DNA from: Ornithinimicrobium sp. F0845
GTDB taxonomy: Bacteria > Actinomycetota > Actinomycetes > Actinomycetales > Dermatophilaceae
Direction of reading: 5' to 3'
Assembly (NCBI RefSeq): GCF_023015765.1
Contig: NZ_JALKAL010000001.1
Coordinates: forward strand, 233,478 to 297,477
DNA: 64,000 nucleotides
Part shown: piece after piece, positions 1,902 through 59,067 of the stretch
How the letters are laid out: each line of letters begins with the position of its first letter
Position numbering within the stretch: the stretch's first letter is position 1
Made by a program: the position numbers and the translations under genes
The notes under the pieces: model-generated
Told to the model about the DNA's origin: nothing
Database searches by the model: none
What the model saw: only the letters and a program-made list of their open reading frames with translations

Positions 1902-1982
1902 AGGGGCAGGTTAGAGGCAGGAGTATGCCGTGTCGCGCGCTCGCGATGAGCGTCCGGTGAATGCTCGGGCCGACAGAGCGGT

Positions 1983-2038
1983 GTGCAAAATCTCCCCAAG
2001 AATGCGCGGGAGGCGGACAAAACCTCCCCAAGAATTGG
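1983..2038. repeat. 32-bp-period array, two units (family A)
   Basis: Two copies of a core CAAAA(T/C)CTCCCCAAGAAT begin at 1986 and 2018, exactly 32 bp apart, with a G+C-rich linker between them. The second copy ends AATTGG. The same core recurs at 31047-31100 (opposite orientation) and 31417-31527, and a related one at 26740-26798. It lies in the spacer between two divergent genes; the in-frame extension of the downstream gene through it is not real coding. Confidence 0.85.
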
Positions 2039-2056
2039 TGTAACACTTGTCACACC
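2037..2056. promoter_or_regulatory. Inverted repeat in the divergent promoter region
   Basis: GGTGTAACA-ct-TGTCACACC is an inverted repeat matching in 8 of 9 arm positions, directly after the 32-bp-period array and 46 bp before the GTG start of the SpoIID-type gene. Its size and position fit a dimeric regulator site. No regulator is identified. Confidence 0.4.
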
Positions 2057-2102
2057 AGTCACTTCTGCATCATATTGGTGGGCCCCGACCAAGGAGTCCA
2101 CC

Positions 2103-4454
2103 GTGCGACCAACCCTCGCCGCCTCACTGGCCCTCGCCCTGACCGTCACGCTGCTGCCGACCGCGGCACTCGCGGCCGACGACACGGCCGAGCCGGTCAG
2201 CGAGGCGATCCCCGACGAGCACCTCGACCTCGAGCACGGGCTCATCACGTCCGACCCCGAGGACGTCGCCCTCTCCGAGCCGACCGTGGTCACCGAGCTG
2301 ACGCAGCTGCCGGCGGCCGAGCCGAGCGCCGAGTCCTACCCGATGCCACCCGGCGGCGCCTACACGGTGACCGGGGGCGGCTGGGGGCACCGCATCGGCA
2401 TGTCGCAGTACGGCGCGCACGGGGCCGGCCTCGCGGGCCTGACCCACCAGCAGATCCTCGCCTTCTACTACCCGGGCACCGTGCTGGAGACCCGGGACAT
2501 CGGGACGATCCGGATCGGCATCACGATCGACAACGACGGGGTGACCCGGGTCGACCACCGCGCCGGACTGGTGGTCAGCCACGGCACCGGCGGCACGACA
2601 TACTCCCTGCCGAGCAGGGACCAGTGGCGCGTCCGGGCCACGTCAGGCAGCGCAAGCAGCTGCGTCCTGGAGGGGCGCAGCGACGCGGGGGTGTGGTCGG
2701 CCTACCAACCCACCGGCATGCCGTCCGGGTGCCCGATCACCTTCGCCTCGCCCACCGAGGGCACCGTCGACCTCTACCTGCCCAGCGGCTCCCGGCGCAT
2801 CTACCGCGGGCAGCTCACCGCCACCCACCGCGGCAGCACGAGTCTCGCAACGGTCAACCGGCTGCCGATGCAGCACTACCTGCGCTCGGTCGTCTCCATC
2901 GAGATGTCCCCCTTCTTCCACACCCAGGCGCTGCGCGCCCAGTCCGTCGCGGCCCGGACCTACGCCGAGCGCGGCGTCAACGGGACCGGCTACTACGACA
3001 CCTGCGACACCACCTCGTGCCAGGCCTACCGCGGTCGCGGAGCGCGGCAGAGCGACGGTGGGATCACCAGCTATGAGTATGCCGAGAACACGGCTGCCGT
3101 GAACGCCACCGACGGGCAGGTGCTCACCTATAACTTCCCCACCGGCAAGGGCCTGGCCACGACGATGTACGCCGCCTCGACCGGTGGCTACACCATCCCG
3201 GGCGGGGCCGGGCACCCCTACCTGACGGCCCAGGCCGACCCCTACGACGCCACCCCGCTGAACACCCGGCACCGCTGGACGGCGCAGCTGACCGCGACCT
3301 CCCTGGAGGCGCGCTACGGCATCCACGACGTGACGCGCGTGCAGGTGCTGGAGCGGGACGGCCACGGGTTGTGGGGCGGCCGGATCGTCCGGGCCAAGGT
3401 GGAGGGCTTCACCTCCGGTGGCGCCTACACCTACGCCAACGCCACCGGCGTCGGGCTCTACCTGGCGCGGCCGTGGCCGACCTGGAGCACCGGCCTGTCC
3501 ACCGACTACTTCACGTTCGGCGACCCCGGCGACGACCCGCCGCCCGCCGGCGACGTCACCAGGATCTCGGGGAAGGACCGCTGGGAGACGGCCAAGAAGG
3601 TCTCCGAGCAGTGGGCGCCCGGGGTGAGCGTGGTCTACCTGGTCAACGGCCAGGACTACCCGGACGCGCTGGCGGCCTCGGCGCGCGCCGGGATCTACGA
3701 CGCGCCCGTGCTTCTGGTCAAGCGGGACCACATCCCCTCGGCCACCCAGCAGGCCCTGACCCGGCTGCAGCCGGGCCGCCTCGTGGTCGTCGGGGGCACC
3801 GGTGCGGTCAGCACGGCCGTCGAGGACCAGCTCAAGGAGTTCACCACCGGCACCATGGAACGGGTCGGCGGCGCCAACCGCTATGAGACGGCCGCGAACC
3901 TGGCCTCCTACTACGCCAGCGGGCAGTCGCGCGTATACCTGGCCAGCGGCCAGGACTTCCCGGACGCGCTCGCCGTCGCCGCCCTGGCCGGCAAGCAGCA
4001 CACCCCGCTCCTGCTGACCCGGGGCGACCGGCTCAATGCTGCGGCCCGCACCCAGCTGGACCGGCTGAACCCGGGCGAGATCGTCGTCCTGGGCGGCACG
4101 GGCAGCATCTCGAACACGGTGGCGCAGCAGGCCGCGGCCTATGCGACGAGCGGCAGCTACCGCCGGCTCGGCGGGACCGACCGCTACCGGACGGCGGCCC
4201 AGGTGGCGCTGGAGTATCCCGGGTCGGTCAGCTCGACGATCGTCGCGTCCGGGGAGACCTTCTCCGACGCCCTGGTGGGCGCCGCGCTGGCCGGGCGTCG
4301 AGGCGTGCCGGTCGTCCTGGTCCAGCGGGACCGGGTCCCCGTGGGTGCCATCACGGCTCTCACCCACCTGCGCCCGTCCGCCATCGACGCGCTCGGCGGC
4401 ACGAACTCCGTGACCGACGCCACGCTGGCCGATCTCGCAGATTACCTGCGCTGA
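2103..4454 (+). CDS. SpoIID/LytB-domain exoprotein with C-terminal cell-wall-binding repeats
   Basis: 783 residues from a GTG start at 2103, chosen because AAGGAG precedes it and the signal peptide (VRPTLAASLALALTVTLLP...) begins there; the open frame further upstream runs through the intergenic repeat. A glycine-rich 'GGGWGHRIGMSQYGAHG' block and 'LPMQHYLRSVVSIEMSP' with 'ALRAQSVAARTYA' identify the SpoIID family, known from amidase activation and sporulation. After a Pro-rich linker, three CWB2 repeats (first 'RISGKDRWETAKKVSE', each with a 'VYLVNGQDYPDALA'-type strand) would attach it to the wall. Probably a cell-wall remodelling or surface protein. Confidence 0.88.
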   Translation: MRPTLAASLALALTVTLLPTAALAADDTAEPVSEAIPDEHLDLEHGLITSDPEDVALSEPTVVTELTQLPAAEPSAESYPMPPGGAYTVTGGGWGHRIGMSQYGAHGAGLAGLTHQQILAFYYPGTVLETRDIGTIRIGITIDNDGVTRVDHRAGLVVSHGTGGTTYSLPSRDQWRVRATSGSASSCVLEGRSDAGVWSAYQPTGMPSGCPITFASPTEGTVDLYLPSGSRRIYRGQLTATHRGSTSLATVNRLPMQHYLRSVVSIEMSPFFHTQALRAQSVAARTYAERGVNGTGYYDTCDTTSCQAYRGRGARQSDGGITSYEYAENTAAVNATDGQVLTYNFPTGKGLATTMYAASTGGYTIPGGAGHPYLTAQADPYDATPLNTRHRWTAQLTATSLEARYGIHDVTRVQVLERDGHGLWGGRIVRAKVEGFTSGGAYTYANATGVGLYLARPWPTWSTGLSTDYFTFGDPGDDPPPAGDVTRISGKDRWETAKKVSEQWAPGVSVVYLVNGQDYPDALAASARAGIYDAPVLLVKRDHIPSATQQALTRLQPGRLVVVGGTGAVSTAVEDQLKEFTTGTMERVGGANRYETAANLASYYASGQSRVYLASGQDFPDALAVAALAGKQHTPLLLTRGDRLNAAARTQLDRLNPGEIVVLGGTGSISNTVAQQAAAYATSGSYRRLGGTDRYRTAAQVALEYPGSVSSTIVASGETFSDALVGAALAGRRGVPVVLVQRDRVPVGAITALTHLRPSAIDALGGTNSVTDATLADLADYLR

Positions 4455-6015: not shown

Positions 6016-6660
6016 ATGTCGGACGAGCAGTCCTCCTCCGACCTCCCGACGGACCAGGGTGAGCTGAAGGAGGGCCCCGGCGACGTCGCCTCGTCGGCCG
6101 GCACGGACCCGTGGCTGGTCGTCATCGACGCGCAGGTCATCTTCGCCGACCCGGAGTCGAAGTGGGGCGCACCGCGGTTCCCCGAGATCGTCGAGCCGGT
6201 GCGGCGCCTGGCCGCCGCCTTCGGCGACCGCGTGGTCCTGACCCGCTGGGTCCCGCCGGCGCAGAAGATCGGCTCGTGGGTGCCCTACTTCGAGCAGTTC
6301 ACCTTCGCCGACCAGCCGCCGAACCACCGGCTCTTCGACCTGGTGCCGGCGGCCGCGGACCTGGGCGCACGGCATACTCTCGCCGAGCCCACCTTCGGCA
6401 AGTGGGGCGACCAGCTGCGTGCGCTCACCGGGCCCACCCCGCACCTGGTCCTGGCCGGCGTCGCCACCGACTGCTGCGTCATCTCGACCGCGCTCCCGGC
6501 CATCGACGACGGTGCCCAGATCACGGTGGTCTCGGACGCCTGCGCCGGATCCGACGACACCAACCACCAGCGGGCGCTGGACGCCATGGCGCTCTACGCA
6601 CCCCAGCTGTTCGTGCGCACGACCGAGCAGGTCCTGACCGAGGACCTCACCCCCTCCTGA
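6016..6660 (+). CDS. Cysteine hydrolase, isochorismatase/nicotinamidase superfamily
   Basis: 214 residues; the ATG overlaps the region just after the permease stop. The superfamily triad is present: Asp38 in 'WLVVIDAQ', Lys129 in 'TFGKWGDQ' and Cys154 in 'VATDCCV', with the usual cis-peptide-type 'AGVATDCC' context. Members hydrolyse amides or related bonds (nicotinamide, ureidoacrylate, N-carbamoyl compounds). With an NCS1 permease directly upstream, an N-carbamoyl or pyrimidine-ring product is a reasonable guess, but the substrate is not determined. The first 30 residues are Ser/Asp/Glu-rich and extra to the domain. Confidence 0.88.
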   Translation: MSDEQSSSDLPTDQGELKEGPGDVASSAGTDPWLVVIDAQVIFADPESKWGAPRFPEIVEPVRRLAAAFGDRVVLTRWVPPAQKIGSWVPYFEQFTFADQPPNHRLFDLVPAAADLGARHTLAEPTFGKWGDQLRALTGPTPHLVLAGVATDCCVISTALPAIDDGAQITVVSDACAGSDDTNHQRALDAMALYAPQLFVRTTEQVLTEDLTPS

Positions 6661-9566: not shown

Positions 9567-11426
9567 ATGAGCAGGTGGCGCGGCCTCGTCGTCCTCGCGC
9601 TGGCGTGTGCCGGGCTGGACGCCTTCCTGCTGGCCGGGGAGGGGATCGCTCGGTATGCCGTGCCACCAGTCGCCGCGGTCGCTGTCCTCGCCGTGGGGCT
9701 GGCGCCGTGGGCAGGGCTCATCGGTGTCGTCGCAGCGATGGTGCTGAGCGGCTGGCTGGGGGTGCCCACGGAGAGCCCGGCACTCCTGCCGGCGACGCTG
9801 GCGGTGACCTATCTGGCCGGGCGGTCGGCGAGCACCTGGCCGGGTCCGGCCGGGGTCGCCGCTGTCGCCCTGACGGCCTGGGTGCAGGACGACCTCGGGG
9901 TGGGGACCCTGGTGTTCGCCGCGGTGGTGCTCGGCACGGTGTGGGCGTTCGGTCGGGTCGTGCGGCGCCGGACCGAGGCGGCCGAGGCAGCCGGCGAGGA
10001 GGCGGCCCGGATCGCAGCTCTGGACCCGGTCGCCGCGTCCGGTCAGGTCGTGCTGGCCGAGCGTCAGCGCCTGGCGACCGAGGCGGTCGCGGTGCTGCAG
10101 ACGGCCGTGACGGACATGCGCCGGGCCTCCGGGGAGGCAGCCGGCTCGCTCGGCGAGGACGACCTGACGGCCGTGCACCGTCGAGGAGTCGTGGCGGTCC
10201 AGGAGCTGCGGCGCCTGCTCGGGCTGCTGCGCCAGGATCCCGAGGGGGAGGGCAGCGACGCGCACGGTGACGCGGAGGGGGTGACCGACGAGCGCCCGCC
10301 CGCACGCCGGTCCCGCTGGCCGTGGCGGTGGCACGAGTGGGCCACGGCCCTTCTCGCGCTCGCGCTCGTGCCGGTCGGCCTCGGGCCGGAGGCTCTCGAG
10401 CCATCGTCGCTCGACGTCGGCGTCGTGCTGTGCGTGGTGCCGCTCCTCCAGCGGATCCGCCCCTTCGCGGCGGCACTGCTGCTCGGTGGCGTGCCGCTCC
10501 TGACCCTGGCGCTGGGCGCACCGCCCTTGGACGGGATGTCCGAGGTCGTGGTCACCGTCGCCGCCGCGTGGCGGGTGGGCGCCGCCGGCGACCGGGTCCT
10601 CGGCGCGGGGCTGGCGGGCCTGCTGCTGTCCCGCGTCGTCTACGTGATGGGCCACGACCCGGGCAACCTGATGATCGAGCTGGCCCTCGTGGGCATGCCG
10701 CTGCTCGCCGGCGCGGCCTGGGGCGAGAAGGACCGCGCCTACCGCCGGGCGCGGGACCGGGCCACCACGCTGCACGAGGTGCACGACGGGATCATCAGCG
10801 CGGCGGTGGCCCAGGAACGGTTGCGGATCGCCCGTGAGCTCCACGACGTCGCCAGCCACGCGGTCGGCGCCATGGTCCTGCAGTCCGCGGCGGCGCTGTC
10901 CCACCGGGAACAGGACCCCGAGCGGGCCCGCCGGGCGCTGGGCTTCGTCGACACCGCGGGGGCGGAGGCCCTGGGCGAGCTGCGTCGGCTGCGGTCCGTG
11001 CTGCGCGGGGATGCGGACGGGCCGGCGTCCCCGCCGCCCGACCTCCAGGATGTCGTGGCCCGTGTCGGTCAGGGCCTCGAGGTGCACCTGGACGCAGAGG
11101 CGCTGCCGCAGGATCCCGTGACCGCGGCCTTTATCCGCCAGGTCGTGCACGAGGGGCTGGCCAACGCCAGTCGTCACGCGCCGGGCTCCCGCGTCGACGT
11201 GCACGTCGGACGGAGTCCCGGCGGGTGGGTCGTCGACATCGTCGACGACGGTCCCGCCGCACCGGGAGCTGCGGTGCAGAGCACCGGCTACGGTCTGGTC
11301 GGACTCGCCGAGAGGGCCCGGGCGCTCGGGGGAGAGGTCATCGCTGGACCCACGGCCGACGGAGGCTTCGCGCTGCGGGCCAGCCTGCGGCATACGACCC
11401 CCGCCGCTGAGAGGGTGGAGGCATGA
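9567..11426 (+). CDS. Two-component sensor histidine kinase, internally duplicated
   Basis: About 619 residues from ATG 9567; an in-frame GTG at 9537 is an alternative. The C-terminal half has a HisKA_3 dimerisation domain 'ERLRIARELHDVASHAVGAM' with phospho-accepting His426, then a GHKL ATPase domain ('VHEGLANASRHA', 'IVDDGP', 'GYGLVGLAERARALGGEV'). The N-terminal half has its own membrane segments followed at about residues 162-230 by 'AERQRLATEAVAVLQTAVT' and 'AVQELRRLLGLLRQDPEG'. These mirror the real dimerisation domain and its 'LGELRRLRSVLRGDADG' end but lack the His. The response regulator gene overlaps its 3' end by 4 bp. Confidence 0.9.
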   Translation: MSRWRGLVVLALACAGLDAFLLAGEGIARYAVPPVAAVAVLAVGLAPWAGLIGVVAAMVLSGWLGVPTESPALLPATLAVTYLAGRSASTWPGPAGVAAVALTAWVQDDLGVGTLVFAAVVLGTVWAFGRVVRRRTEAAEAAGEEAARIAALDPVAASGQVVLAERQRLATEAVAVLQTAVTDMRRASGEAAGSLGEDDLTAVHRRGVVAVQELRRLLGLLRQDPEGEGSDAHGDAEGVTDERPPARRSRWPWRWHEWATALLALALVPVGLGPEALEPSSLDVGVVLCVVPLLQRIRPFAAALLLGGVPLLTLALGAPPLDGMSEVVVTVAAAWRVGAAGDRVLGAGLAGLLLSRVVYVMGHDPGNLMIELALVGMPLLAGAAWGEKDRAYRRARDRATTLHEVHDGIISAAVAQERLRIARELHDVASHAVGAMVLQSAAALSHREQDPERARRALGFVDTAGAEALGELRRLRSVLRGDADGPASPPPDLQDVVARVGQGLEVHLDAEALPQDPVTAAFIRQVVHEGLANASRHAPGSRVDVHVGRSPGGWVVDIVDDGPAAPGAAVQSTGYGLVGLAERARALGGEVIAGPTADGGFALRASLRHTTPAAERVEA

Positions 11427-13235: not shown

Positions 13236-16200
13236 ATGACTCACCGACCACGCGCGCGGACCGTCGTGTCCGGCGTCGCCGCTGCCGCCCTCGTGGCGAC
13301 TGCGGCAGCAGGTGTCGCAACCGCGGCGCCCGACCAGGAGACCTCGGCCACGGCCGAGTCGAACACGACGTCGCGTCCACAGCTCAACCACCCGAGCACC
13401 GGCACGACGCACCGTCTCACACTGATCACCGGTGACGTCGTCACCGTCACCGAGCTCGCGGACGGCACGAGGACCGTGGGCGTCGAGTCGCCCACCGGTG
13501 GCGGCTACCAGACCACGACGGTGGGCGAGGACCTGCACGTCGTGCCTGACGCGGCACGCCCCTTCGTGGCGGCGGGGACGCTGGACGCGGACCTGTTCAA
13601 CGTGTCCGCGCTGATCGAGCAGGGCGTCGGCACGGCAGGGCGCGACACCGCGCCGGTCATCGTGCAGTATGCCGAGGGGGCCTCCACGCAGTCGCTCCAG
13701 TCGTCCCTCGGGACGTCGACCGCCACGCTGGAGAGCATCAACGCCGTGGCGGTAACGCCCGAGGCCGACGCCGGCGCTGACCTGTGGCAGTTGCTCACCG
13801 GCGGTCGCAGCGACGGCACCCTGGCACGGGGCATCAGCAAGGTGCACCTCGATGGTCTTGTCGAGGCCACCCTGGCGGACAGCGTCCCGCAGGTCGGCGC
13901 GCCCGAGGCCTGGGACCGGGGGATCGACGGGGCCGGGGTCACCGTCGCGGTCCTGGACAGCGGCGCTGACGTCGACCACCCAGACCTGGTGGACGCGATC
14001 ACTGACTCGCACAGCTTCGTGCCGGGCCAGGCCGTCACCGACGGCAACGGCCACGGCACCCACGTGGCCTCCACGGTCGCCGGGTCCGGCGCCGCCTCCG
14101 ACGGTGTCCAGGTGGGTGTCGCCCCGGGGGCCGAGCTGATCATCGGCAAGGTGCTCGGTGACGACGGCTTCGGCCAGGAGTCCTGGATCATCGACGGGAT
14201 GGAGTGGGCGGCGGAGAACGCCGATGTCGTCAACATGAGCCTGGGCACCCCCCAGGCGAGCGACGGCACCGACCCGATGGCGGTGGCACTGCAGACCATC
14301 AGCGAGGACACCGACACCCTCTTCGTGGTGGCCGCGGGGAACAACGGCCAGGTCAGCGGCATCGGCTCGCCTGGTGCGGCCGAGGCCGCGCTGACCGTCG
14401 GTGCCGTCGACGGCATGGACTACCGACCGTGGTTCACCAGCATGGGCCCCCGTCTCGGGGACGGCCTGGTCAAGCCCGACCTGTCCGCCCCGGGCGTCGA
14501 CGTGCTCGCCGCCCGGTCGCAGGACAGCGCCGGTGAGGGTTGGTACACCACCCTGGACGGCACGTCCATGGCCAGCCCCCACATCGCCGGGGCGGCAGCC
14601 CTGCTGCTCCAGGACGACCCGGACCTGACCCGCGAGGAGCTGAAGAACACGCTGATGTCCTCCTCGTTCCCGCTGAGCGAGGGGCCCTTCCAGCTCGGCG
14701 CCGGGCGGCTCGACGTGCCGGCCGCGCTGGACGCCGAGGTGATCGCCACCGGGTCGGTCTCCTTCGGCTACTTCGACTGGCCCCACGAGGGTGACGTGCC
14801 CGTCACCCGCGAGATCACCTACACCAACGACGGTGCGGCAGACGTCACCCTGGCGCTACGTCTCGAGGGCGACGACGGCATGGGCGGCGGTCTGCCCTCC
14901 GGCCTGACCGAGCTGTCCGCCACCCAACTGGTCGTGCCCGCCGGAGGCACCGCCAGCGTCCAGGTCACCCTGGACCCGGCGGTCGTCCCGCTGGCCTCCA
15001 CCCTGTCCGGCTTCGTCATCGCCTCCGCCGACGGGGCCGACGTGGCGCGCACCGGCTGGGGCGTCATGAAGGAGGAGGAGCGCTACGACCTGACCCTGCG
15101 CGCCACCGACCTCGACGGCTCCCCGGCCCTGGCCTACGTGGTGTTCAAGGGTCGCGACCACATGTGGCCCTCGCAGTACATCGTCGACGGCGAGACCACC
15201 CTGCGGCTGCCCGCCGGCACCTATGCCGCGATGAGCTACATGGACGTCCACGTCGCCGAGGACGCGCTCGGCGTGGCCCTGGTGGGTGACCCCCAGGTCG
15301 AGCTCGCCCAGGACACCGTCGTCGAGCTCGACGCCCGAGAGACGCACGAGATCACGGTCGACGTGGGTCAGGACGGGCTCGAGCCGTCCCAGCGCCGGAT
15401 GGACTTCAGCATCAGGGCGGGCACCGGTCTGAACAGCGCCTACCAGGTGCCGGCCGCTGTCGACCACCTCTTCGCCGCCCCCATGGACGGCATCACCGAC
15501 GGTGACTTCGAGTACCTCACCCGCTGGCGGCTGCGGACCCCGTTCGTGGCCGTCGCCGAGGGCGGCACGTCGCTGGACGTCACCGGGCTGGTCGGCAGCT
15601 CGATGCCCACCGAGCAGGTGAGCCTCGACGCGGTGTACGCCGGCACGGGCACGCCCGACGAGCTCGCCGCCGTGGAGACCGAGGGCAAGGCCGTGGTGAT
15701 CACCCGCGACCAGTCCCTGGACCTGACCCAGATCGCCGCCGGCATCGACCAGGCCGGCGCGGCGCTCCTCGTCGTCGTCAACGACGAGCCCGGCGAGTTC
15801 TCCGCCGGAGTGTCCTGGGAGGCTCCGGTGTCCTACCCGGCCGTCGGCGTGAGCGGCGTCGAGGGCGCGGGCCTGATCTCCCGGATCCAGGCCGGTCCCG
15901 TCCAGCTCACCGTCAGCGGCGGTGTGGACAGCCCGGTCGTCTACGACCTGGTGGACCCGCACCCGGGCAGCATCCCGACCGACCTGGAGTACGCGCCGAC
16001 CCTGGACGAGCTGGCCCGGATCGACACCAGCTTCCACGGCAACCAGACGCGGGCGGGTGGCGAGTTCCGCTACGACTTCCGTCCGTACACCCCCTACGGG
16101 GTCGGCTTCCAGGAGATGATGAACATGCCGATCGCCCGCACCGAGTACGTCTCGGCGCAGGAGGGCACGGAGTGGTACCAGGACGCCGTCGTCCTGGAGG

Positions 16201-19712: not shown

Positions 19713-19847
19713 CCCGGGCACTCCTCTCCTCGCCGGCGGGTGGCGGGGCGGCCACCAATCTCTGCGGAGGCATGGCTGCCCCGGCCGGCCGCCTCTGGCG
19801 GGGCCGGTGTCCGAGATGACCACACGGCATACGGGATGATGGGCGGG

Positions 19848-25112: not shown

Positions 25113-25161
25113 AGTATGCCGTGGGGCACGCGAGCGCAACACGGCGCGTTAGGTTTGCGTC

Positions 25162-31046: not shown

Positions 31047-31100
31047 CATTCTTGGGGAAGATTTGTACGCGTTCTGCGCATTCTTGGGGAAGATTTGTAC
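31047..31100. repeat. 32-bp-period array, two units (family A, reversed)
   Basis: CATTCTTGGGGAAGATTTG followed by TAC occurs at 31047-31068 and 31079-31100, exactly 32 bp apart. It begins 6 bp after the phosphoketolase stop. Relative to the preceding gene it reads in the same direction as the arrays after metH and after pit. The sequence is the complement of the core seen at 1986 and 31440. Confidence 0.85.
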
Positions 31101-31351: not shown

Positions 31352-31416
31352 GTCGGGAGGGCTGGTATGTGTTCGGCGGCTCTGGGGTGTCACGGGTTCC
31401 TCGATACCGTACCGAA

Positions 31417-31518
31417 CGTCCCCAAGATTGCGGGAGCGGCGTACAAAACTTCCCCAAGAATGCGGGAGCGGCGTACAAAACTTCCCCAAGAATACGGGAG
31501 CGGCGTACAAAACCTCCC

Positions 31519-31527: not shown

Positions 31528-35160
<3,633 letters not shown>

Positions 35161-40121: not shown

Positions 40122-41942
40122 GTGGTGAGCCAGGGGACCGAGCAGCCGAGGCAGTATGCCGTGTGGGCACCCGACGCCGACCGCGTGGACGTGGTCGTCG
40201 GTGACCGCGTCGTCGGTGACCGCGTCGTCGGTCACCCCGCCGACCGTGCGCGCCCGATGGTGCCGGGGGAGCGTCCGGGCTGGTGGGTGGCGCCGGTCGA
40301 GCAGGGCGACGACGGCCGCTATGCATTCAGCCTCGACGGCGGTGACCCGCGCCCGGACCCGCGCTCGCTGTCGCAGCCCGACGGGGTCCACGCCTCCTCG
40401 GCCCTGGTCGACCTCGGGGCCCACGAGTGGGGGGACGGCGACTGGACCGGCCGCGAACTGGAGGGCTCGGTCCTCTACGAGCTGCACGTCGGGACGTTCA
40501 CCCCGGAGGGCACCCTCGCCGCGGCGACCCGGCACCTGGACCACCTGGTCGACCTCGGGGTCACGACGGTCACGCTGATGCCGGTCGCGGCCTTCCCGGG
40601 GCGGCACGGCTGGGGCTACGACGGGGTCGCGCTGTTCGCGGTGCACGAGCCCTACGGCGGCGCGCGGGGGCTGCAGGAGTTCGTCGACGCCTCCCACCAG
40701 CGTGGCCTGGGGGTCCATCTCGACGTCGTCTACAACCACCTCGGGCCGAGCGGCAACTACCTCGCGCAGTTCGGGCCCTACTTCACCGACCGGCACCACA
40801 CCCCGTGGGGACAGGCCGTCAACCTGGACGCTCCGGGCAGCGACGAGGTGCGGACGTTCCTGCTGGACAACGCACGGATGTGGCTCACCGACTTCCACCT
40901 GGACGGGCTGCGCCTGGACGCCGTCCACGCGCTGCACGACGACCGCGCCGAGCACCTCCTGGAGGCGCTCGCAACCCTCGCCGACGAGGTCAGCCGGCAG
41001 ACCGGCATACCCCGGCACCTGATCGCCGAGTCCGACCGCAACGACCCCGCCACGGTGAGCCCGCGCGGCCCCGGCGGCGCCGGCGGGCTCGGGCTGGCCG
41101 GACAATGGGCCGACGACGTCCACCACGCGCTGCACGTGATGCTGACCGGGGAGACGCAGGGCTACTACGCCGACTTCGCTGCTCCCGGCGCCCTGGCCAA
41201 GGTGCTGACGCGCACCCCCTTCTTCCACGACGGCACCCCCTCCACCTTCCGGGGACGCGACCACGGCCGCCCGGTCGACCTGGGCGTCACCCCGCCGTGG
41301 CGTTTCGTGGCGTCCCTGCAGACCCACGACCAGGTCGGCAACCGGGCGGCGGGCGACCGGCTGTGCCACGGGCTCACCCCCGGCCAGGCGGCAATCGGGG
41401 CAGCGCTGCTGCTCACCGCGCCCTACACGCCGATGCTGTTCATGGGGGAGGAGTGGGCTGCGGGCACGCCGTGGCAGTTCTTCACCGATCACGCCGAGCC
41501 GGACCTCGTCGCGTCGATCCGCACCGGGCGGGCCCGCGAGTTCGCCGAGCACGGCTGGACGACGCAGGTCCCCGACCCGCAGTCCCCGGACACGGTGGAG
41601 GCCTCCCGACTGGACTGGATCGAGCCGACCCGTGAGCCCCACGCGTCCCTGCTGGCGTGGCACCGCACCCTCCTCCGGCTCCGCCGGGACCTCCCCGACC
41701 TGCTCGACACGCCGCTGGACGCCTCCAACCTGACCCGCGAGGGCGACGTCCTCGTGCTCACTCGCGGAGGCGTCCACGTCGTCGCCAACCTGGGTGAGTC
41801 CCCCGCCCGGGTGCCGGCACCGGGGGAGCCGGGTGCACGGCATACTGCCGCGGAGTATGCCGGGGCGCGGGTCGAGGCGGACACGGTCCACCTGCCCGCC
41901 CACTCGGTGATCGTCGTCGCCGACCAGCGGCCGGCGGACTGA
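40122..41942 (+). CDS. treZ: Maltooligosyltrehalose trehalohydrolase
   Basis: About 606 residues; GTG at 40122 or 40125. An N-terminal beta-sandwich ('YAVWAPDADRVDVVV', interrupted by a repeated VVGDR from a 15-bp tandem duplication at 40194-40238) precedes the GH13 barrel. Barrel motifs are 'GLGVHLDVVYNHLGPSGNYL', 'FHLDGLRLDAVHAL' (nucleophile Asp), 'HLIAESDRNDP' (acid/base Glu region) and 'FVASLQTHDQVGNRA'. 'TPMLFMGEEWAAGTPWQFFTDH' is typical of TreZ. It cleaves trehalose from maltooligosyltrehalose made by TreY. A 22-bp repeat cluster precedes the start. Confidence 0.94.
   Translation: MVSQGTEQPRQYAVWAPDADRVDVVVGDRVVGDRVVGHPADRARPMVPGERPGWWVAPVEQGDDGRYAFSLDGGDPRPDPRSLSQPDGVHASSALVDLGAHEWGDGDWTGRELEGSVLYELHVGTFTPEGTLAAATRHLDHLVDLGVTTVTLMPVAAFPGRHGWGYDGVALFAVHEPYGGARGLQEFVDASHQRGLGVHLDVVYNHLGPSGNYLAQFGPYFTDRHHTPWGQAVNLDAPGSDEVRTFLLDNARMWLTDFHLDGLRLDAVHALHDDRAEHLLEALATLADEVSRQTGIPRHLIAESDRNDPATVSPRGPGGAGGLGLAGQWADDVHHALHVMLTGETQGYYADFAAPGALAKVLTRTPFFHDGTPSTFRGRDHGRPVDLGVTPPWRFVASLQTHDQVGNRAAGDRLCHGLTPGQAAIGAALLLTAPYTPMLFMGEEWAAGTPWQFFTDHAEPDLVASIRTGRAREFAEHGWTTQVPDPQSPDTVEASRLDWIEPTREPHASLLAWHRTLLRLRRDLPDLLDTPLDASNLTREGDVLVLTRGGVHVVANLGESPARVPAPGEPGARHTAAEYAGARVEADTVHLPAHSVIVVADQRPAD
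41838..41862. repeat. Inverted pair of the GTATGCC motif inside treZ
   Basis: CGGCATACT-gccgcgg-AGTATGCCG is a perfect inverted repeat with 9-bp arms inside the treZ coding region. The left arm is part of the 10-mer CACGGCATAC. The encoded residues are RHTAAEYAG, using the rare codons CAT, ACT and TAT. Confidence 0.8.
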
Positions 41943-43527: not shown

Positions 43528-44520
43528 GTGGACTGGCTGCCGGTCGCCCTCGTCATCGGGCTCGCGCTGATCTTTGCGTTCACCAACGGTTTCCAGGACG
43601 CGTCGAACTCCATCGCGATCGTCGTCGCGACGGGCTCGCTCAGCCCGCGTCTCGCGGTGACGATGGCAGCGACCCTGGGGCTCGGCGGCGCCTTCCTGGG
43701 GGAGGGGCTGGCCCGCAGGTTCGGCCTGGCCATCATCGACCCGCCCGCTGGGGGGCTGGGACTCCGGATCATCGGCGCTGCCCTGGTCGCGGCGATCGTG
43801 TGGGACCTGGTCACCTGGTGGTTCGGGATGCCGGCGTCGTCGACGCAGGCGCTGATCGGAGGGCTCACCGGGGCGTCGCTGGCGGCCGGGACGACCGTGC
43901 TCTGGAGCGGCATCTGGCGTGATGTCGCACTACCGATGCTGCTCTCGCCCGTGGCCGGACTGGTCCTCGCCTACCTGGGCATGCGGGTGCTGATCAGGGT
44001 GGCGGGCGACCTCGCGAGACGTCGGGTGGGACCGGACATGCGCCGTGCCCAGGTCGCGGCGGCCGGTGCCGTCGCCCTCGGCAACGGCCTGCAGGACGCC
44101 GCCAAGACCATGGGCGTGATCCTCCTGGTCCTGACCGTCAGCGGTCACCAGCTGGGGCCGGGCGTGCCGTGGGAGGTCATGGTGGGGGCGGCCGTCGCGA
44201 TGGCGCTCGGCACGTATGCCGGGGGCTGGCGGATCGTGCGCACCCTCGGCCGCCGGATCATCTCCCCGGCACCCGACCCGGCTCAGGGGACGGTGGCCCA
44301 GAGCGCCACGGCAGGCATCCAGTATCTGGCGGGCGCCCTCTATGCACCGGTGTCGAGCACGCACACCGTCACGGCCGCGATCGTGGGCGCCGGGTTGACC
44401 GGGCGTCGCTCCGCCATCCGCTGGGACGTCATCACCCAGGTCGTGGCGGTCTGGTTGGTGAACTTCCCGGCCACCGTGGCCCTCAGTGCGCTCCTGTGCA
44501 CGGTGGCTCTCGCCCTCTGA
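43528..44520 (+). CDS. pitA: Low-affinity inorganic phosphate transporter (Pit), copy 2
   Basis: 330 residues from GTG 43528, the same length as copy 1. It has the PiT signatures 'FTNGFQDASNSIAIVVATG' and 'ALGNGLQDAAKTMGV' with about ten hydrophobic helices. In the first signature copy 1 has 'FHDAANAIA' where this has 'FQDASNSIA', so ligand preference may differ. It is followed after 207 bp by pstS, which places low- and high-affinity phosphate uptake side by side. Confidence 0.9.
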   Translation: MDWLPVALVIGLALIFAFTNGFQDASNSIAIVVATGSLSPRLAVTMAATLGLGGAFLGEGLARRFGLAIIDPPAGGLGLRIIGAALVAAIVWDLVTWWFGMPASSTQALIGGLTGASLAAGTTVLWSGIWRDVALPMLLSPVAGLVLAYLGMRVLIRVAGDLARRRVGPDMRRAQVAAAGAVALGNGLQDAAKTMGVILLVLTVSGHQLGPGVPWEVMVGAAVAMALGTYAGGWRIVRTLGRRIISPAPDPAQGTVAQSATAGIQYLAGALYAPVSSTHTVTAAIVGAGLTGRRSAIRWDVITQVVAVWLVNFPATVALSALLCTVALAL

Positions 44521-48936: not shown

Positions 48937-50400
48937 ATGACCTGGCTCGCGGCGCTCCCGTCCGCCTGGATCGTCCTGGAGACGGGGCTGAAGCTGTATG
49001 CCGTGGGCACGGTGCCGGAGAACCGCCGGCCTGCCTCGTCCTCGGCGTGGCTGCTGCTGATCCTCTTCCTCCCGCTGGTCGGTTTCCCGCTCTACTGGCT
49101 GATCGGCAGCCCGTGGGTGCGGGGACGGCGGCACGAGGTCCAGGCCCGCACCAACCAGCTCCTGGCCGAGGTGAACGCCCCTCTGCCGCAGCTGCCGGAC
49201 GGCGTCACGGTCTCCGACGGGCTGGCCTCGGTGGTCACCATGAACCGGCGGCTCACCGCCCTGCCCTGCGTGACAGGGCGGGACGAAGGGCTCTATGGCG
49301 ACACCGATGACTACTTCGCCGCGCTCGCCGGGGCGATCGGCGCCGCGCGGGAGCACGTGCACATCGAGTTCTACATCGTGGCGCGGGACGACGCGACCGA
49401 GCCGGTTTTCCAGGCCATGTTCGAGGCCGTCCGGCGTGGCGTCCAGGTCCGGCTGCTCCTGGACCACCTCGGCTCGCGCAAGTATCCCGGCCGCACGCAG
49501 ATGCAGGAGGCCCTCACCGCCGGCGGGGTGCAGTGGCACCACATGATGCCGATCGACCCGCTGCGGGGCCGGTGGCGGCGCCCCGACCTGCGCAACCACC
49601 GCAAGCTGATGGTGGTCGACGGCACCGTCGGCTTCATCGGCTCGCACAACCTGATCGGCGCGGCCTACGGCAGCGCCGCGAACGAGAAGATCGGGCGCCG
49701 GTGGAAGGACCTGAGCATGCGGGTCACCGGTGACGTGGTGACCTCCCTGCAGTCGGTCTTCCTGACCGACTGGTTCACCGAGACGGGCGAGCTGCTGGAC
49801 CGCACGACATACTTGATCGACCAGCCGGACCTGCTCCCGGGTGACCGGGACAACGCCCTGCAGCTCGTCCCCTCGGGTCCGGGCTTCCCGACCGAGCCCA
49901 ACCTGAGGATGTTCACCGCCCTGGTGAGCCAGGCGACCGAGAAGATCTCCATCACCAGCCCCTACTTCGTCCCGGACGAGTCGCTGCTGGCCGCCATCAC
50001 CTCCGCGGCCTACCGCGGGGTCCGGGTCGAGCTCTTCGTCGGCGAGCAGGCGGACCAGTTCCTGGTCGGGCACGCCCAGCGCTCCTACTACCGCGCGCTG
50101 CTCACCGCCGGCGTGGTCATCCACCTCTACCCGACCCCCACGGTGCTGCACGGCAAGTACCTCACCGTGGACGACGCGGTGGGCGTCATCGGCTCCTCCA
50201 ACATGGACTTCCGCTCCTTCGGCCTGACCTACGAGATCATGCTGATGGGCTTCGGCGGCAGCATGGTCGCCCGGTTGCAGGCCAACGATGACGAGTACCG
50301 CGCGGTGTGCCGCGAGCTGACCCTGGAGGAGTGGGACGCCCAGCCGTGGCACGCCCGCTACATCGACAACGTCTGCCGCCTGACCGCGGCGCTGATGTAG
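48937..50400 (+). CDS. cls: Cardiolipin synthase (phospholipase D family)
   Basis: 487 residues with two N-terminal membrane segments, the second 'SAWLLLILFLPLVGFPLYWLIG'. Two HKD catalytic motifs are intact: 'RNHRKLMVVDGTVGFIGSHN' and 'LHGKYLTVDDAVGVIGSSNM'. Joins two phosphatidylglycerol molecules, or a related alcohol, to make cardiolipin. It begins 30 bp after pstB and could be read from the pst transcript. Confidence 0.92.
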   Translation: MTWLAALPSAWIVLETGLKLYAVGTVPENRRPASSSAWLLLILFLPLVGFPLYWLIGSPWVRGRRHEVQARTNQLLAEVNAPLPQLPDGVTVSDGLASVVTMNRRLTALPCVTGRDEGLYGDTDDYFAALAGAIGAAREHVHIEFYIVARDDATEPVFQAMFEAVRRGVQVRLLLDHLGSRKYPGRTQMQEALTAGGVQWHHMMPIDPLRGRWRRPDLRNHRKLMVVDGTVGFIGSHNLIGAAYGSAANEKIGRRWKDLSMRVTGDVVTSLQSVFLTDWFTETGELLDRTTYLIDQPDLLPGDRDNALQLVPSGPGFPTEPNLRMFTALVSQATEKISITSPYFVPDESLLAAITSAAYRGVRVELFVGEQADQFLVGHAQRSYYRALLTAGVVIHLYPTPTVLHGKYLTVDDAVGVIGSSNMDFRSFGLTYEIMLMGFGGSMVARLQANDDEYRAVCRELTLEEWDAQPWHARYIDNVCRLTAALM

Positions 50401-50404
50401 CCGC

Positions 50405-51364
50405 TCAGACGGGCGGGCGGTGTCGCTCGACGTGGACGACGTTCGCGTCCGGTCCGGTGCCGGCCAGATGGACTGCCAGCACCTCACCCTTGTCCATCCC
50501 CTGCCTGGCCAGGCGGGTCAGCATCCGCGCCGACCGTCCGGCAGGTGCCAGACCGGCGAGCGTGGTCAGTATGCCGGGCAGCACCGGTCCGTGGGTGCAC
50601 AGGGCGGTCCCCGCCCCGCGGGCGAGCACCGCGCCCAGGTGCTTGGCCGCCTTGTCCGGTGCCGCCTCGAACCCCTCCTCGGACAGACCCTTGCGGGTCG
50701 TCAGCCGCAGACCGGACTCCACGGCATACGGGGCCAGCGTGTCGGCGCAACGGACCGAGGGCGAGCTGACCAGGTGCTCCGGGTCGTAGGCCGTGAGCAG
50801 CGGGATGATCCGCCGGGTCCGCCGCTGACCGGCCTCGGTGAGCGGTCGGTCGGGGTCGACGCCGCGCCAGGACCCGCGCCCCACCGCCTTGGCGTGCCGC
50901 ACCACGAGCAGGGTCCAGGTCTCCAGGTGCCCGTCGGTGTGGGCCTCGACGGCGGCGTCCAGCTGCTCTCGGTCCCGGCGGTAGCTCAGGCGCTCCCTGG
51001 CCTCCTGCGCGCCGAGCCAGCGCACCTCGTCGATCTCGTGCTCGAGGTGACCGTGCCCCCCGGTCACGGTGCCCGCCCAGTAGCGCACCTGCTTGAGCTG
51101 TGGGCGTCCGTCCTTGGTGCCCAGGCCGTAGAAGGAGGTGGGCAGCGGCGGCCCGAGGCGCACCCGCAGGCCGGTCTCCTCCAGGGTCTCCCGGGCCGCG
51201 GCCACCGCCCACTCCTCGCCCACCTCGAGCTTGCCCTTGGGCCAGGACCAGTCGTCATACTGCGGTCGGTGCACGAGCGCGAACTCCAGCTCACCGTCCC
51301 GCAGGCGCCACGGGAGGACCCCCGAGGCACGGACGAGCACCGCGCGTTCGGTCTGCGTCGCCAC
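50405..51364 (-). CDS. NUDIX hydrolase fused to histidine phosphatase (MutT1-like)
   Basis: 319 residues. Residues 1-140 hold a Nudix box: 'GKLEVGEEWAVAAARETLEETGL' reduced to G-x5-E-x7-RE-x2-EE-x-G. The C-terminal half is a histidine-phosphatase domain beginning 'LLVVRHAKAVGRGSW' (RHG-type His). This fusion matches mycobacterial MutT1, which degrades 8-oxo-dGTP and diadenosine polyphosphates, and which likewise sits beside ppk. It ends 13 bp before the ppk stop and is on the same strand, so co-transcription is likely. Confidence 0.9.
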   Translation of the reverse strand: MATQTERAVLVRASGVLPWRLRDGELEFALVHRPQYDDWSWPKGKLEVGEEWAVAAARETLEETGLRVRLGPPLPTSFYGLGTKDGRPQLKQVRYWAGTVTGGHGHLEHEIDEVRWLGAQEARERLSYRRDREQLDAAVEAHTDGHLETWTLLVVRHAKAVGRGSWRGVDPDRPLTEAGQRRTRRIIPLLTAYDPEHLVSSPSVRCADTLAPYAVESGLRLTTRKGLSEEGFEAAPDKAAKHLGAVLARGAGTALCTHGPVLPGILTTLAGLAPAGRSARMLTRLARQGMDKGEVLAVHLAGTGPDANVVHVERHRPPV

Positions 51365-53690: not shown

Positions 53691-54635
53691 TCAGGCTGGT
53701 GCGTCCGCGGCGGCATACATGACGTCGATAGCGGACCGCTCGAACCCCAGCCGGTGGTAGGTGGCCAGCGCTGGAGCGTTGTCCCCCTCGACGTAGAGGG
53801 TGGCGCTGGCCAGGCCGCGATTGCGCAGGTGGTGCAGCCCCACCAGGGTCACCACGGTGCCGAGTCCGCGTCCCTGGTAGGCCGGGTCGACCCCGACGAC
53901 GTAGACCTCGCCGGAGGCGGGCACACTGTGGCCCGGCTCCGCCGGCTCGACCTTGGTCCAGTGGAATCCGGCGAGGTCGTCCCCGTGCTCGATGAGCAGG
54001 AATCCGTGGGGGTCGAACCACGGCTCCTGGGTCCGGTCCTGGAGGTCGGCCAGGGTCATCCGGCCCTGTTCCGGGTGGTCCGCGAAGGCTCGGGCGTTGA
54101 CCGCCAGCCAGCGCTCCTCGTCGCGGCCGCGCTCGAAGCTGCGCACCGTGAAGCCCTCCGGCAGCGTGACTCCCGGCAGCTCGGACCACTCTCCGCGCAG
54201 CGGCCGGGTCATCTGCCACAGCTCGCGGACCGGTGACAGGTCCAGGCTGGAGAAGAGGTTCCGTGCGGCGGGTAGGTCACCGTGGGCCCAGAACCGCGTG
54301 TGCGGCCACTGCGCGAGCACCGCCTGCGCCAGGGCGCGGCCGTGCCCTGCGTGCCGGTGGTCCGGGTCCACGACGATCTCTGCCGACGGGGGGTCGGTCA
54401 GCTCGACGTGCGCATAGGCGACCACGCCGGTGCGCGGACTGTCCGGGTGCTCCTCGATGAGCAGGTGCCTGGTGGGGGCCTCGCTGGCCGCCGATCCGGG
54501 CAGGCGGCGGACGTCGAGCACGGTCTGCTCGGACAGGGGGCGCACCCCGTCGTGGGTCGCCGCCCGCACGGCCATGGCCAGCACGTCCGCGGACTGGGCC
54601 GGTTCCAGGTGTGCGTCGGTCACAGTCGGCTGCAT
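53691..54635 (-). CDS. mshD: Mycothiol synthase
   Basis: 314 residues with two GNAT acetyltransferase domains. The C-terminal one has the acetyl-CoA site 'VYVVGVDPAYQGRGLGTVVT' and 'HHLRNRGLASATLYVEGDNAPALATYHRLGFE'. The N-terminal one has 'IVVDPDHRHAGHGRALAQAVL'. 'PHGFLLIEHGDDLAGFHWTKV' is typical of MshD. It acetylates Cys-GlcN-Ins in the last step of mycothiol synthesis. The glnR-mshD pairing, 4 bp apart here, is also found in mycobacteria. Confidence 0.93.
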   Translation of the reverse strand: MQPTVTDAHLEPAQSADVLAMAVRAATHDGVRPLSEQTVLDVRRLPGSAASEAPTRHLLIEEHPDSPRTGVVAYAHVELTDPPSAEIVVDPDHRHAGHGRALAQAVLAQWPHTRFWAHGDLPAARNLFSSLDLSPVRELWQMTRPLRGEWSELPGVTLPEGFTVRSFERGRDEERWLAVNARAFADHPEQGRMTLADLQDRTQEPWFDPHGFLLIEHGDDLAGFHWTKVEPAEPGHSVPASGEVYVVGVDPAYQGRGLGTVVTLVGLHHLRNRGLASATLYVEGDNAPALATYHRLGFERSAIDVMYAAADAPA

Positions 54636-56841: not shown

Positions 56842-56856
56842 GCAGCCGCTGCAGCG

Positions 56857-57954
56857 TCAGCGCCCAAAACCCTGCGTCGGTGACACGTCGTCGCGATAGT
56901 CCTCCATCGTGTCGGTGCGCAGGTGCTCGCGGAGCACCTCGAACTGCGCTTCGTGGGGGATGACGATCGATCCGGCCAGGTCGTCCGAGCCGATGCCGCT
57001 CCACGGTGCTGTCACGAAGTGGATGTCACCGCCTCGCAGGTCGCGCAGCTGCCAGCCGAGATCGCGCATGTCGCTGACCTTCAGGTCCTCGTCGACGGTG
57101 AGGTTCTGCGTCGCCGCGTCGACGACGGTGGCCAGCCGAGCGGGGTTGGTGAACGTGTCACGCGTCAGCACCTTGAGCATGACGGCCTTGATGAACTCCT
57201 GCTGCCGGTGGCCGCGGGAGATGTCGCCCTGGCTGAGGTTGTAGCGCTCGCGGACAAAACGGAGGCCGGTCTCGCCGTCCATGTGGGTCATCCCCACCTC
57301 GAAGCCCGGGCTTGCCTCGGCGACGTTGACGTCGACGCCGCCCACCGCGTCGGTCAGCGACTGGAAGCTCTCGAAGTCGGTGATGACGACGTGATCCACC
57401 GGCACGCCGATCAGAGGCTGGATCGTCTCCACCAGGAGCGGTGGGCCGCCGAAGGCGTAGGCGGCGTTGAGCTTGTTCTTGCGCTCCGAGCCGGGGATCT
57501 CCACGAACAGGTCGCGCGGGAAGTGGATGAGGTCGACACGTTCCCGTTCGTGCGAGACGTGCATCAGCACCATCACGTCGGACCGGCCACGGTCGGCGTC
57601 AGGGTCCCTGCTGTCCGAACCGATGACCAGGATGTTCAGCGCGTCACCGGCCTCTGCGGGCTTGTCGGGCGGCGCCGGGGTGACGACGGAGTCCTCGCCG
57701 CGGATGGGGGAGTCCGGGAGGAGCTGTGCGTGGGTGATGTTGCTGCTGACCTTCCAGTTGAGGAAGGCCAGGTAGCCCGCGACGGTGCCAACGCCGAGCA
57801 GCACCAGGGTCACGAACGAGACGATCGCGATCCGCAGCCCGCGCCGTCGTCGGCGGCGTGGGCGCACGCCCACGTCGTCCTGGGCGCCGGTGCCGTCGAA
57901 GATGTCATCGCCCTCGTCGGCAGCCGGCAGGTCTCCCTCGTAGTCCCCTGCCAT
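56857..57954 (-). CDS. LytR-CpsA-Psr family wall-polymer ligase
   Basis: 365 residues from ATG 57954; the frame continues far upstream but this is the natural start before the membrane segment. An acidic N-terminus, an RRRRRR stop and one transmembrane helix ('IAIVSFVTLVLLGVGTVAGYLAFL') are followed by the LCP domain. Conserved arginines and aspartates are in 'ILVIGSDSRDPDADRGRSDVMVLMHV', 'DLIHFPRDLFVEIPG', 'DAVGGVDVNV' and 'GLRFVRERYNLSQGDISRGHRQQEFIKAV'. LCP enzymes attach anionic or arabinogalactan-like polymers to peptidoglycan. Confidence 0.92.
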   Translation of the reverse strand: MAGDYEGDLPAADEGDDIFDGTGAQDDVGVRPRRRRRRGLRIAIVSFVTLVLLGVGTVAGYLAFLNWKVSSNITHAQLLPDSPIRGEDSVVTPAPPDKPAEAGDALNILVIGSDSRDPDADRGRSDVMVLMHVSHERERVDLIHFPRDLFVEIPGSERKNKLNAAYAFGGPPLLVETIQPLIGVPVDHVVITDFESFQSLTDAVGGVDVNVAEASPGFEVGMTHMDGETGLRFVRERYNLSQGDISRGHRQQEFIKAVMLKVLTRDTFTNPARLATVVDAATQNLTVDEDLKVSDMRDLGWQLRDLRGGDIHFVTAPWSGIGSDDLAGSIVIPHEAQFEVLREHLRTDTMEDYRDDVSPTQGFGR

Positions 57955-57999
57955 GGGAGCGGATTCTACGTCCCGAACCTGGGGGGATACCGTGAAGAG

Positions 58000-59067
58000 G
58001 TGACCCACGTGACCAGCGCCCCCGGTGACGCGGCGACCCAGGAGCGTCGCGTCGTCCCGCCGAGCCCTCTCCTGAGCCGGCCCGGTGCCGTCGCCGCCAG
58101 CGGTGCCGATGACGGCGTGGCCGCGCACTTCGGGGACCCGCACCGAGAGCAGCGGCTGCTCGTCGAGGGCCTGTCCGTCGTCGACCTGTCCCACCGGGCC
58201 GTGCTGACGGTGACCGGCCCGGACCGGCTCAGCTGGCTGCACTCCCTGACCAGCCAGGCACTGACCGATCTGGCGCCGCGGACCTCGACCGAGTCGCTCA
58301 TCCTCACGCCGAAGGGGCATATCGAGCACGCACTGCACGTCATCGACGACGGCGACACCACCTGGCTCGTGACGGAGCGGGAGACCGCCCCGGCGGCTCA
58401 GGCATGGCTGGACTCGATGCGCTTCATGCTGCGCGTGGAGGTGGCCGACCGCACCGAGGACTTCGCTGTGGTCGGCGAGCCCGTGGCGCGCGAGGCGGCC
58501 GAGGGTGAACACCTGGCCTGGGTCGACCACTGGCCCGGACCGATCGGGGACACGGCGCTGTACGGCCCCGCCGAGGGACACCCGGGTGCCAACCGACCCT
58601 GGCGCGAGGTGCTGGTCCCACGGGGCGAGCTCACGGCATACGTCGGCGAGCGGCCGCTGTCCGGGGTCTGGGCGGCAGAGGCGCTGCGCGTGGCCGCCTG
58701 GCGCCCACGGGCCGGCGCCGAGACCGACCACCGGACGATCGCGCACGAGCTGGACTGGTTGCGCACCGCGGTGCACCTGCACAAGGGCTGCTACCGCGGG
58801 CAGGAGACGATCGCGCGGGTGCACAACCTCGGCCGGCCACCGCGACGACTGGTCTTCCTGCACCTGGACGGGTCGGGGCACACGCTCCCCGAGCCCGGGG
58901 ACGAGCTGCACCTCGGCGACAAGACGGTCGGACGCATCACCACGGTGGCGCGGCACTACGAGGACGGGCCGATCGCGCTCGCCGTCGTGAAGCGCAACAC
59001 CGATCCCGAGGCGGTGCTCACCTCGGGCCCGACCAGCGCAGCCCAGACAGTCATCGTCACCCCCTGA
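58000..59067 (+). CDS. ygfZ: YgfZ/GcvT-fold folate-binding protein
   Basis: 355 residues from GTG 58000; GTG 58009 is also possible. The N-terminal tetrahydrofolate-binding fold includes 'VVDLSHRAVLTVTGPDRLSWLHSLTSQALTDL', and the diagnostic 'LHKGCYRGQETIARVHNLG' is the YgfZ signature with its functional Cys. YgfZ acts with folate in the repair or assembly of certain Fe-S clusters. It is divergent from the LCP gene across only 45 bp. Confidence 0.9.
   Translation: MTHVTSAPGDAATQERRVVPPSPLLSRPGAVAASGADDGVAAHFGDPHREQRLLVEGLSVVDLSHRAVLTVTGPDRLSWLHSLTSQALTDLAPRTSTESLILTPKGHIEHALHVIDDGDTTWLVTERETAPAAQAWLDSMRFMLRVEVADRTEDFAVVGEPVAREAAEGEHLAWVDHWPGPIGDTALYGPAEGHPGANRPWREVLVPRGELTAYVGERPLSGVWAAEALRVAAWRPRAGAETDHRTIAHELDWLRTAVHLHKGCYRGQETIARVHNLGRPPRRLVFLHLDGSGHTLPEPGDELHLGDKTVGRITTVARHYEDGPIALAVVKRNTDPEAVLTSGPTSAAQTVIVTP

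Follow-up and report, generated by a model that had tools for sequence, protein, structure and literature searches.

A dispersed, non-palindromic DNA word in Dermatophilaceae is a candidate self-DNA uptake signal

Introduction

Why would a 10-bp word, GTATGCCGTG, be scattered 13 times through 64,000 bp of an actinobacterial chromosome? The stretch in question (the window; positions 233,478 to 297,477 of contig NZ_JALKAL010000001.1) belongs to Ornithinimicrobium sp. F0845 (assembly GCF_023015765.1), whose genome, designated G000 here, comprises 4.2 Mb in 59 contigs; other Gnnn labels denote the genomes compared with it. An initial annotation, made from the letters of the window, had listed these 13 copies, all of which proved exact in position and orientation (Table 1) and far exceed chance (mean 0.06, maximum 1 in 100 dinucleotide-preserving shuffles). 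The shorter form GTATGCC is present in the 27 copies that had been counted and, because G is the next base in 27 of 27, the core of the motif is taken to be the 8-mer GTATGCCG. We estimate a probability of about 60% that the motif is a self-DNA uptake signal sequence, an uptake role deduced from the sequence comparisons below.

Abundance of the motif and codon control

The suspicion that the word is a genome-wide signal was borne out. G000 carries 542 copies of GTATGCCGTG (277 forward and 265 reverse) as against 13 copies of the same word read backwards (4 and 9), and 1,692 copies of the core. In 457 kb of the contig that contains the window, the core occurs 198 times, whereas a third-order Markov model predicts 11.8 copies. 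It is preceded by A at 118 of these 198 sites and followed by T or A and then by G, and the G000 motif is accordingly written [A]GTATGCCG[T/A]G. Position 6 of the core tolerates T and A, as seen within the 10-mer on the same contig (63 copies with C, 20 with T and 14 with A). Codon-phase effects aside, the letters shared around the G000 core stop within ∼ 13 bp; flanking AT tracts were considered as a further component and rejected, since the base differences mostly track codon phase.

Codon choice was controlled for in 380 genes (399 kb in total on the contig that holds the window), predicted with our own gene caller in place of curated annotation, by permuting synonymous codons inside each gene 200 times. 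The 10-mer occurs 49 times in these genes compared with 2.2 times after shuffling (maximum 7), and the 8-mer 166 times compared with 17.7 (maximum 29). Codon choice is therefore insufficient to explain the excess, as the initial annotation had maintained, and the variation in codon register that it described extends to all six registers, well beyond Tyr-Ala-Val: the 8-mer was found 2, 9 and 86 times in sense registers 0, 1 and 2 and 11, 36 and 22 times in the corresponding antisense registers, the means of 100 shuffles being 0.04, 1.6, 12.7, 0.9, 2.0 and 1.1, respectively. Neither of the two outcomes named beforehand as refuting, similar counts in a codon-shuffled control or enrichment confined to the Tyr-Ala-Val register, was found, since the shuffled counts are low and the excess is present in every register. 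Orientation within genes is uneven (97 vs. 69, p 0.036), and no significant bias of cores toward gene ends was detected.

The excess is also present in the 59 kb between genes, where 29 cores were found and 1.6 were expected (second-order Markov model). In the window, the reported presence of intergenic copies was confirmed, although not their number: by our gene calls they are four of the 13 rather than three, gene starts being predictions and the copy at 19823 lying only a few bases before one of them.

Distribution in the family and dialects

Using cut-offs of our own and rounded genome sizes, we classified genomes as enriched (95–1,356 cores per Mb) or poor (fewer than 45 per Mb). Of the 186 genomes of the family, including G000, 111 are enriched (31 genera), 67 are poor (23 genera) and eight are intermediate; four genera include both enriched and poor members. 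G156 has 4,724 cores and G191 has 1,356 per Mb. A sample of 297 genomes from the order includes 24 of this family, and none of the remaining 273 falls into the enriched class. Density alone would make some of these intermediate, the top one being G396 with 177 cores in 2.2 Mb and 135 copies of the reversed word.

Because a tree of LeuRS and ComEC from 49 genomes is poorly supported at its deep nodes and leaves its two outgroups apart, only well-supported groups were used. In this tree, the poor G141 pairs with the rich G143 (support 100) and the poor G202 with the rich G098 (100), and the poor g2 joins G091 (100) within a clade that includes G136 and G189 (100). Repeated loss of one ancestral system appears to be the simplest reading of this pattern, repeated gain of the same word being less likely. 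No substitute motif stood out in 98 kb of the poor genome G022 or 140 kb of G031; poor genomes other than these two and G032 were examined as 20-kb pieces only. G032 (L048-L052) yielded only an array-like repeat, with ∼ 17 copies containing TATGCGGGGA, that is possibly a CRISPR array.

The flanks of the core differ among enriched genomes, in several cases judged from samples of only 20 kb. A precedes the core at 109 of 182 sites in a 414 kb sample of G000 vs. seven of 173 in its congener G013, and C precedes it in nine of nine in G067. In G033 and G034, core position 6 is relaxed to accept A and G as well, and the part that is invariant across the dialects is GTATG-N-CG. The longest form is that of G098, in which GTATGCCGCT is present at six of six dispersed sites scattered over 20 kb (L136 positions 789, 813, 5233, 8053, 13255 and 13857). 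At each of these sites, similar letters come after CGTATGCCGCT or TGTATGCCGCT, with a consensus near GTATGCCGCTGRGCYG, so that letters are common well past the core. G098 has 19 copies of the 10-mer and 1,142 cores, a disparity that different flanks would explain. Its longer form is a longer dialect or could be a dispersed repeat.

The latter possibility bears on the idea that the motif is functionless, accumulated through biased mutation or conversion or left by dead mobile repeats. Molecular drive needs no benefit, which is nothing specific to this motif, and the G098 sites do share letters past the core as a dispersed repeat would. In G000, however, the shared letters end at ∼ 13 bp, the copies occupy every gene register and lost copies are often one base off (see below), and the motif is therefore not a long mobile repeat there; we consider a functionless origin distinctly improbable.

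Strand balance, spacing and layout

Chromosomal layout was sampled in G013, a single-contig genome, as 20 evenly spread pieces of 20 kb out of ∼ 197 (10%). The cores are divided between 85 on the plus and 88 on the minus strand, and their division does not follow GC skew (53/61 for the 13 positively skewed pieces vs. 32/27 for the seven negatively skewed ones, p 0.34). There are 3–14 cores per piece, with no origin-to-terminus gradient obvious by eye. Over the 111 enriched genomes, the plus-strand share ranges from 0.454 to 0.531 (chi-square 67.2, 111 degrees of freedom), which is more even than binomial. The absence of strand bias reported for the window thus holds in the enriched genomes family-wide and in the GC-skew test. 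In G000, the cores are spaced slightly more regularly than by chance: the coefficient of variation of their spacing is 0.853 vs. 0.990 (standard deviation 0.069) for random placement, with 1.25% of simulations as low, and adjacent cores have the same orientation in 89 cases and opposite orientations in 107.

Two further explanations turn on these data. The motif might be the site of a chromosome-structuring or segregation protein, either bound by a nucleoid protein or comparable with matS, parS or KOPS, and be kept by selection, as its even spacing, its spread over the sampled chromosome and its conservation would allow. The known KOPS, matS and parS types do not fit, because there is neither polarity nor any concentration in the 20 of ∼ 197 G013 pieces, and the absence of the motif within genera, as in G141 beside G143, would be odd for an essential function; we regard such a role as quite unlikely. 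The motif could instead act as a recombination hotspot of the Chi kind, recognised by RecBCD or, where that is missing, by another helicase-nuclease, AdnAB/AddAB. It is an over-represented, octamer-sized motif, common in the ordinary chromosome and scarce in two prophages (see below), and an unpolarised candidate Chi motif has been described in 23 Vibrio species, according to the available part of that report (PMC8022716). Against this, the motif lacks polarity with GC skew or between adjacent sites, and a match to RecC, searched for without AdnAB or AddAB, was found in 48 of the 111 enriched genomes (63 being without) vs. 38 of the 67 poor ones (p 0.09). The RecC distribution and the missing polarity disfavour a RecBCD-Chi system, and we consider a Chi-like role unlikely.

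Inverted pairs of cores within 60 bp are rare in G000 (one in 457 kb, inside a predicted gene), for which reason a terminator or hairpin role was rejected. The two direct pairs within 60 bp in the same 457 kb both come from one tandem array, a repeat with three cores at a 33-bp spacing (G000 C1:208282-208355). A scan of a contig collection for inverted pairs, which required A before the core and is silent on other dialects, returned six stretches, five outside the actinobacteria and one in Arthrobacter oryzae, that look like chance. No islands were seen in 457 kb of the window's contig, where the longest core-free gap is 9.5 kb and contains genes that score as native. A 6.4-kb gap without gene calls was considered as a ribosomal RNA locus and rejected, the part searched having given no ribosomal RNA match.

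Conservation and foreign DNA

In alignments of the comEA-comEC neighbourhood of G000, G006, G010 and G015 (six pairs, which are not independent), exact retention was found for 21 of 30 cores, as against 26% of 51,082 non-core 8-bp windows and, among the 429 windows that are one or two changes off the core, for 102. Many of the lost orthologous copies differ from the core by one base and some by more or by gaps. This site conservation, together with the dialects, suggests a sequence-specific reader of the motif.

In the congeners G002 and G018, comEC is interrupted by ∼ 40-kb inserts (G002 C1:1161102-1202035, L084-L086; G018 C46:68443-109701, L087-L089). These are prophages, as the proteins tested (nine, six from G002 and three from G018) gave matches to the integrase, terminase and portal families and, in G002, to a major head protein. 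They contain three and two cores, respectively, compared with eight in 19.9 kb and six in 19.6 kb of their flanks (pooled p 0.0003, with five cores in the 80.5 kb of prophage and 14 in the 39.5 kb of flanking DNA). Nevertheless, five cores exceed the 0.8 expected from a third-order Markov model, so that the core is not avoided in these prophages. The prophage integrase, which also matches the DNA-invertase family, is probably of the serine type and adjoins one of the comEC pieces. By analogy, the comEC prophage is possibly a phage-controlled competence switch; the comK prophage of Listeria is such a switch.

The same counts bear on the proposal that an orphan methylase or a restriction-linked or BREX-like system favours the motif as a DNA-modification or self/non-self mark. 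The core GTATG-N-CG, asymmetric and with a single degenerate position, would suit it, as it resembles some methylase sites. Restriction sites, however, are normally avoided rather than gathered, and neither the two prophages nor samples of five poor genomes, two of which are too small to judge, have fewer copies of the motif than expected; this explanation seems to us very unlikely.

Competence genes and the uptake proposal

If the motif is an uptake signal, a surface receptor, probably part of a Tad/Flp pilus or ComEA, would, during natural competence, bind the word in double-stranded DNA released by lysed kin. Molecules that contain the word would be preferentially pulled in, one strand would enter through ComEC, and recombination would transfer the tagged allele to the chromosome. 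Such selective uptake would accumulate and preserve copies chromosome-wide and on both strands, and phage DNA would have few. Competence of the cells, a preference of uptake for the motif and the identity of the reading protein are inferred. Among the functions that the initial annotation had offered, uptake would fit best, whereas segregation signals of known types and a RecBCD-dependent repair signal are disfavoured.

The gene complement of G000 is compatible with such a route. ComEA (SLBB and helix-hairpin-helix domains) is encoded immediately before ComEC and, elsewhere, there is a Tad/Flp-like locus, broken up by other genes, with a TadA-family ATPase, two T2SSF proteins, two TadE-family proteins, an Ssd/CpaE-like ATPase whose match falls just below the model cut-off and a 45-aa DUF4244 protein that is taken for a small pilin. 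Tad minor pilins are present, and the NCBIfam models of the mycobacterial pilin-type proteins Rv3654c/Rv3655c pass their cut-offs. Comparison with phage and plasmid proteins yielded distant matches only, the closest being to actinobacterial phages and to Nocardia and Tsukamurella, which, like the pilin models, points to a likely actinobacterial host. Transformation of Micrococcus luteus needs two tad clusters in which the genes are similarly ordered, according to the accessible sections of PMC4322843. Prepilin peptidase is found in 110 of the 111 enriched and 64 of the 67 poor genomes and, among enriched genomes that are at least 90% complete, in 95 of 95, with a ComEC match in 93 of 95. Of the genomes that are at least 90% complete, those without prepilin peptidase (G186 and G202) and those with fewer than three matches to T2SSE (G079, G080, G126, G127, G153 and G154) are all poor.

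Several observations weigh against an uptake role. ComEC matches are found in 106 of the 111 enriched and in 67 of 67 poor genomes, so that the motif cannot be predicted from competence genes; the differences in ComEC and prepilin peptidase between the two classes are not significant (p 0.15–0.16) and, because most poor genomes keep these genes, they agree with uptake without discriminating. No reader gene was found, as ComEC, the T2SSE ATPase and prepilin peptidase are nearly universal and separate no groups. The comEC gene is broken in three enriched genomes, by prophages in G002 and G018 and by an internal deletion in G015, whose frame (L083:9041-11041, 666 aa) lacks approximately residues 341–478 of the G000 protein. 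Either these genomes lost competence recently, as G015 may have done, or the motif is maintained by something else. An apparent ComEC loss in G022 was not counted, its short match ending at a contig end. PilM, a marker of type IVa pili, is lacking in 34 of the 36 family genomes searched, the match in G006 being under the cut-off and that in G000 passing only with its neighbours, and a ComP-like receptor on a type IVa pilus therefore seems unlikely. To these points are added the scarcity of inverted pairs and the above-expectation core count in the prophages. Finally, there are 5.3 cores per 10 kb in the least codon-adapted fifth of genes but 2.5 in the most adapted fifth; the core may be a cost in highly tuned genes, or the drop may be a compositional effect.

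At even odds, in our judgement, the uptake signal would be part of an ancient, family-wide self-DNA recognition code of monoderm Actinomycetota, in which a GTATGNCG word is read by competence pili of the Flp/Tad type, with dialects and repeated loss, independently of the Neisseria and Haemophilus systems. Searches of the open-licence PMC literature found no account that joins an over-represented uptake sequence with Actinobacteria, or an uptake sequence and natural transformation with Actinomycetota; in the parts of it available to us, gathered uptake sequences are those of Pasteurellaceae and Neisseriaceae only, and the occurrences of the exact GTATGCCGTG in 28 papers, judged by the titles of 15 of them, are apparently chance, in primers and the like. 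If the proposal is true, self-selective DNA uptake can evolve independently, with another kind of pilus, in high-GC monoderm bacteria. It would also hint at sexual-isolation codes in actinobacteria, and one short tag would become a directly testable handle for the transformation of strains that resist manipulation. The search for the reader gene becomes a comparative one through close relatives of which one has the motif and the other does not (G141/G143, G202/G098, and G022 vs. the other g1 genomes).

Motif copies and other repeats in the window

Table 1. Positions of the 10-mer and of further copies of the core in the window
Feature	Position	Strand	Remarks
GTATGCCGTG	1923..1932	+	A before; intergenic by own gene calls
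GTATGCCGTG	6368..6377	-	A before
GTATGCCGTG	9653..9662	+	
GTATGCCGTG	19823..19832	-	intergenic by own gene calls
GTATGCCGTG	24643..24652	-	A before
GTATGCCGTG	25114..25123	+	A before; intergenic by own gene calls
GTATGCCGTG	25461..25470	-	A before
GTATGCCGTG	29759..29768	+	A before
GTATGCCGTG	40154..40163	+	A before
GTATGCCGTG	41836..41845	-	A before; half of inverted pair with 41855 (+), in predicted gene
GTATGCCGTG	48996..49005	+	
GTATGCCGTG	50720..50729	-	
GTATGCCGTG	58632..58641	-	intergenic by own gene calls
core GTATGCCG	3077..3084	+	
core GTATGCCG	11388..11395	-	
core GTATGCCG	13667..13674	+	
core GTATGCCG	21457..21464	-	
core GTATGCCG	27098..27105	-	
core GTATGCCG	29426..29433	-	
core GTATGCCG	34144..34151	+	
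core GTATGCCG	34680..34687	-	
core GTATGCCG	39478..39485	-	
core GTATGCCG	41003..41010	-	
core GTATGCCG	41855..41862	+	second half of inverted pair with 41836 (-)
core GTATGCCG	44214..44221	+	
core GTATGCCG	50569..50576	+	
core GTATGCCG	53711..53718	-	

The window contains two other kinds of repeats. Direct repeats with a 32-bp spacing around ATTCTTGGGGA form three clusters (window positions 1993-2035, 31048-31090 and 31408-31518) with six copies, out of eight in 457 kb, and are possible regulator boxes. A 51-bp tandem repeat (60282-60645) lies within a predicted gene (59640-60779); translated by eye, its units are rich in Lys, Ala, Thr and Pro and resemble the tail of a histone-like protein.

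Comparison with known systems

Without enrolling it as a proven member of the class, we consider that the motif most likely works like an uptake sequence. It resembles known uptake sequences in density and copy number, layout, dialects, uneven presence within the family and preferred orientation in genes. The DNA uptake sequence (DUS) of Neisseriaceae, ATGCCGTCTGAA, is represented by ∼ 1,900 10-mers in meningococcal genomes, as given in the available part of PMC3630211. Both the DUS and the motif have hundreds to thousands of copies in coding and intergenic DNA, exist in dialects and are missing in some members of the family (PMC3630211 and PMC2346458, in the portions available). They differ in that the motif has a high-GC actinobacterial host with no clear type IVa marker and has few inverted pairs; inverted pairs between genes are a feature of the Neisseria DUS that is not required of uptake sequences. 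ATGCCGT is common to the motif and the AT-DUS, probably by chance, because CTG, the functional DUS core, is missing from the G000 motif.

Like the uptake signal sequence (USS) of Pasteurellaceae, AAGTGCGGT, the motif is a short asymmetric word that is dense and genome-wide and, as in G000, one orientation of known uptake sequences is commoner in genes (both from the accessible part of PMC2346458). It is unlike the USS in having no AT-rich flanking tracts past codon phase and no significant gene-end bias. AT-rich tracts of this kind do flank the USS. Chi sites, which are tied to recombination, are over-represented octamers as the motif is, whereas the motif has no polarity and is present independently of RecC. 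HIP1 of cyanobacteria, whose function is unsettled, is likewise an abundant chromosomal word, palindromic where the motif is non-palindromic. In Campylobacter, the preference for self-DNA in transformation hangs on a methylated short site and not on a gathered long word.

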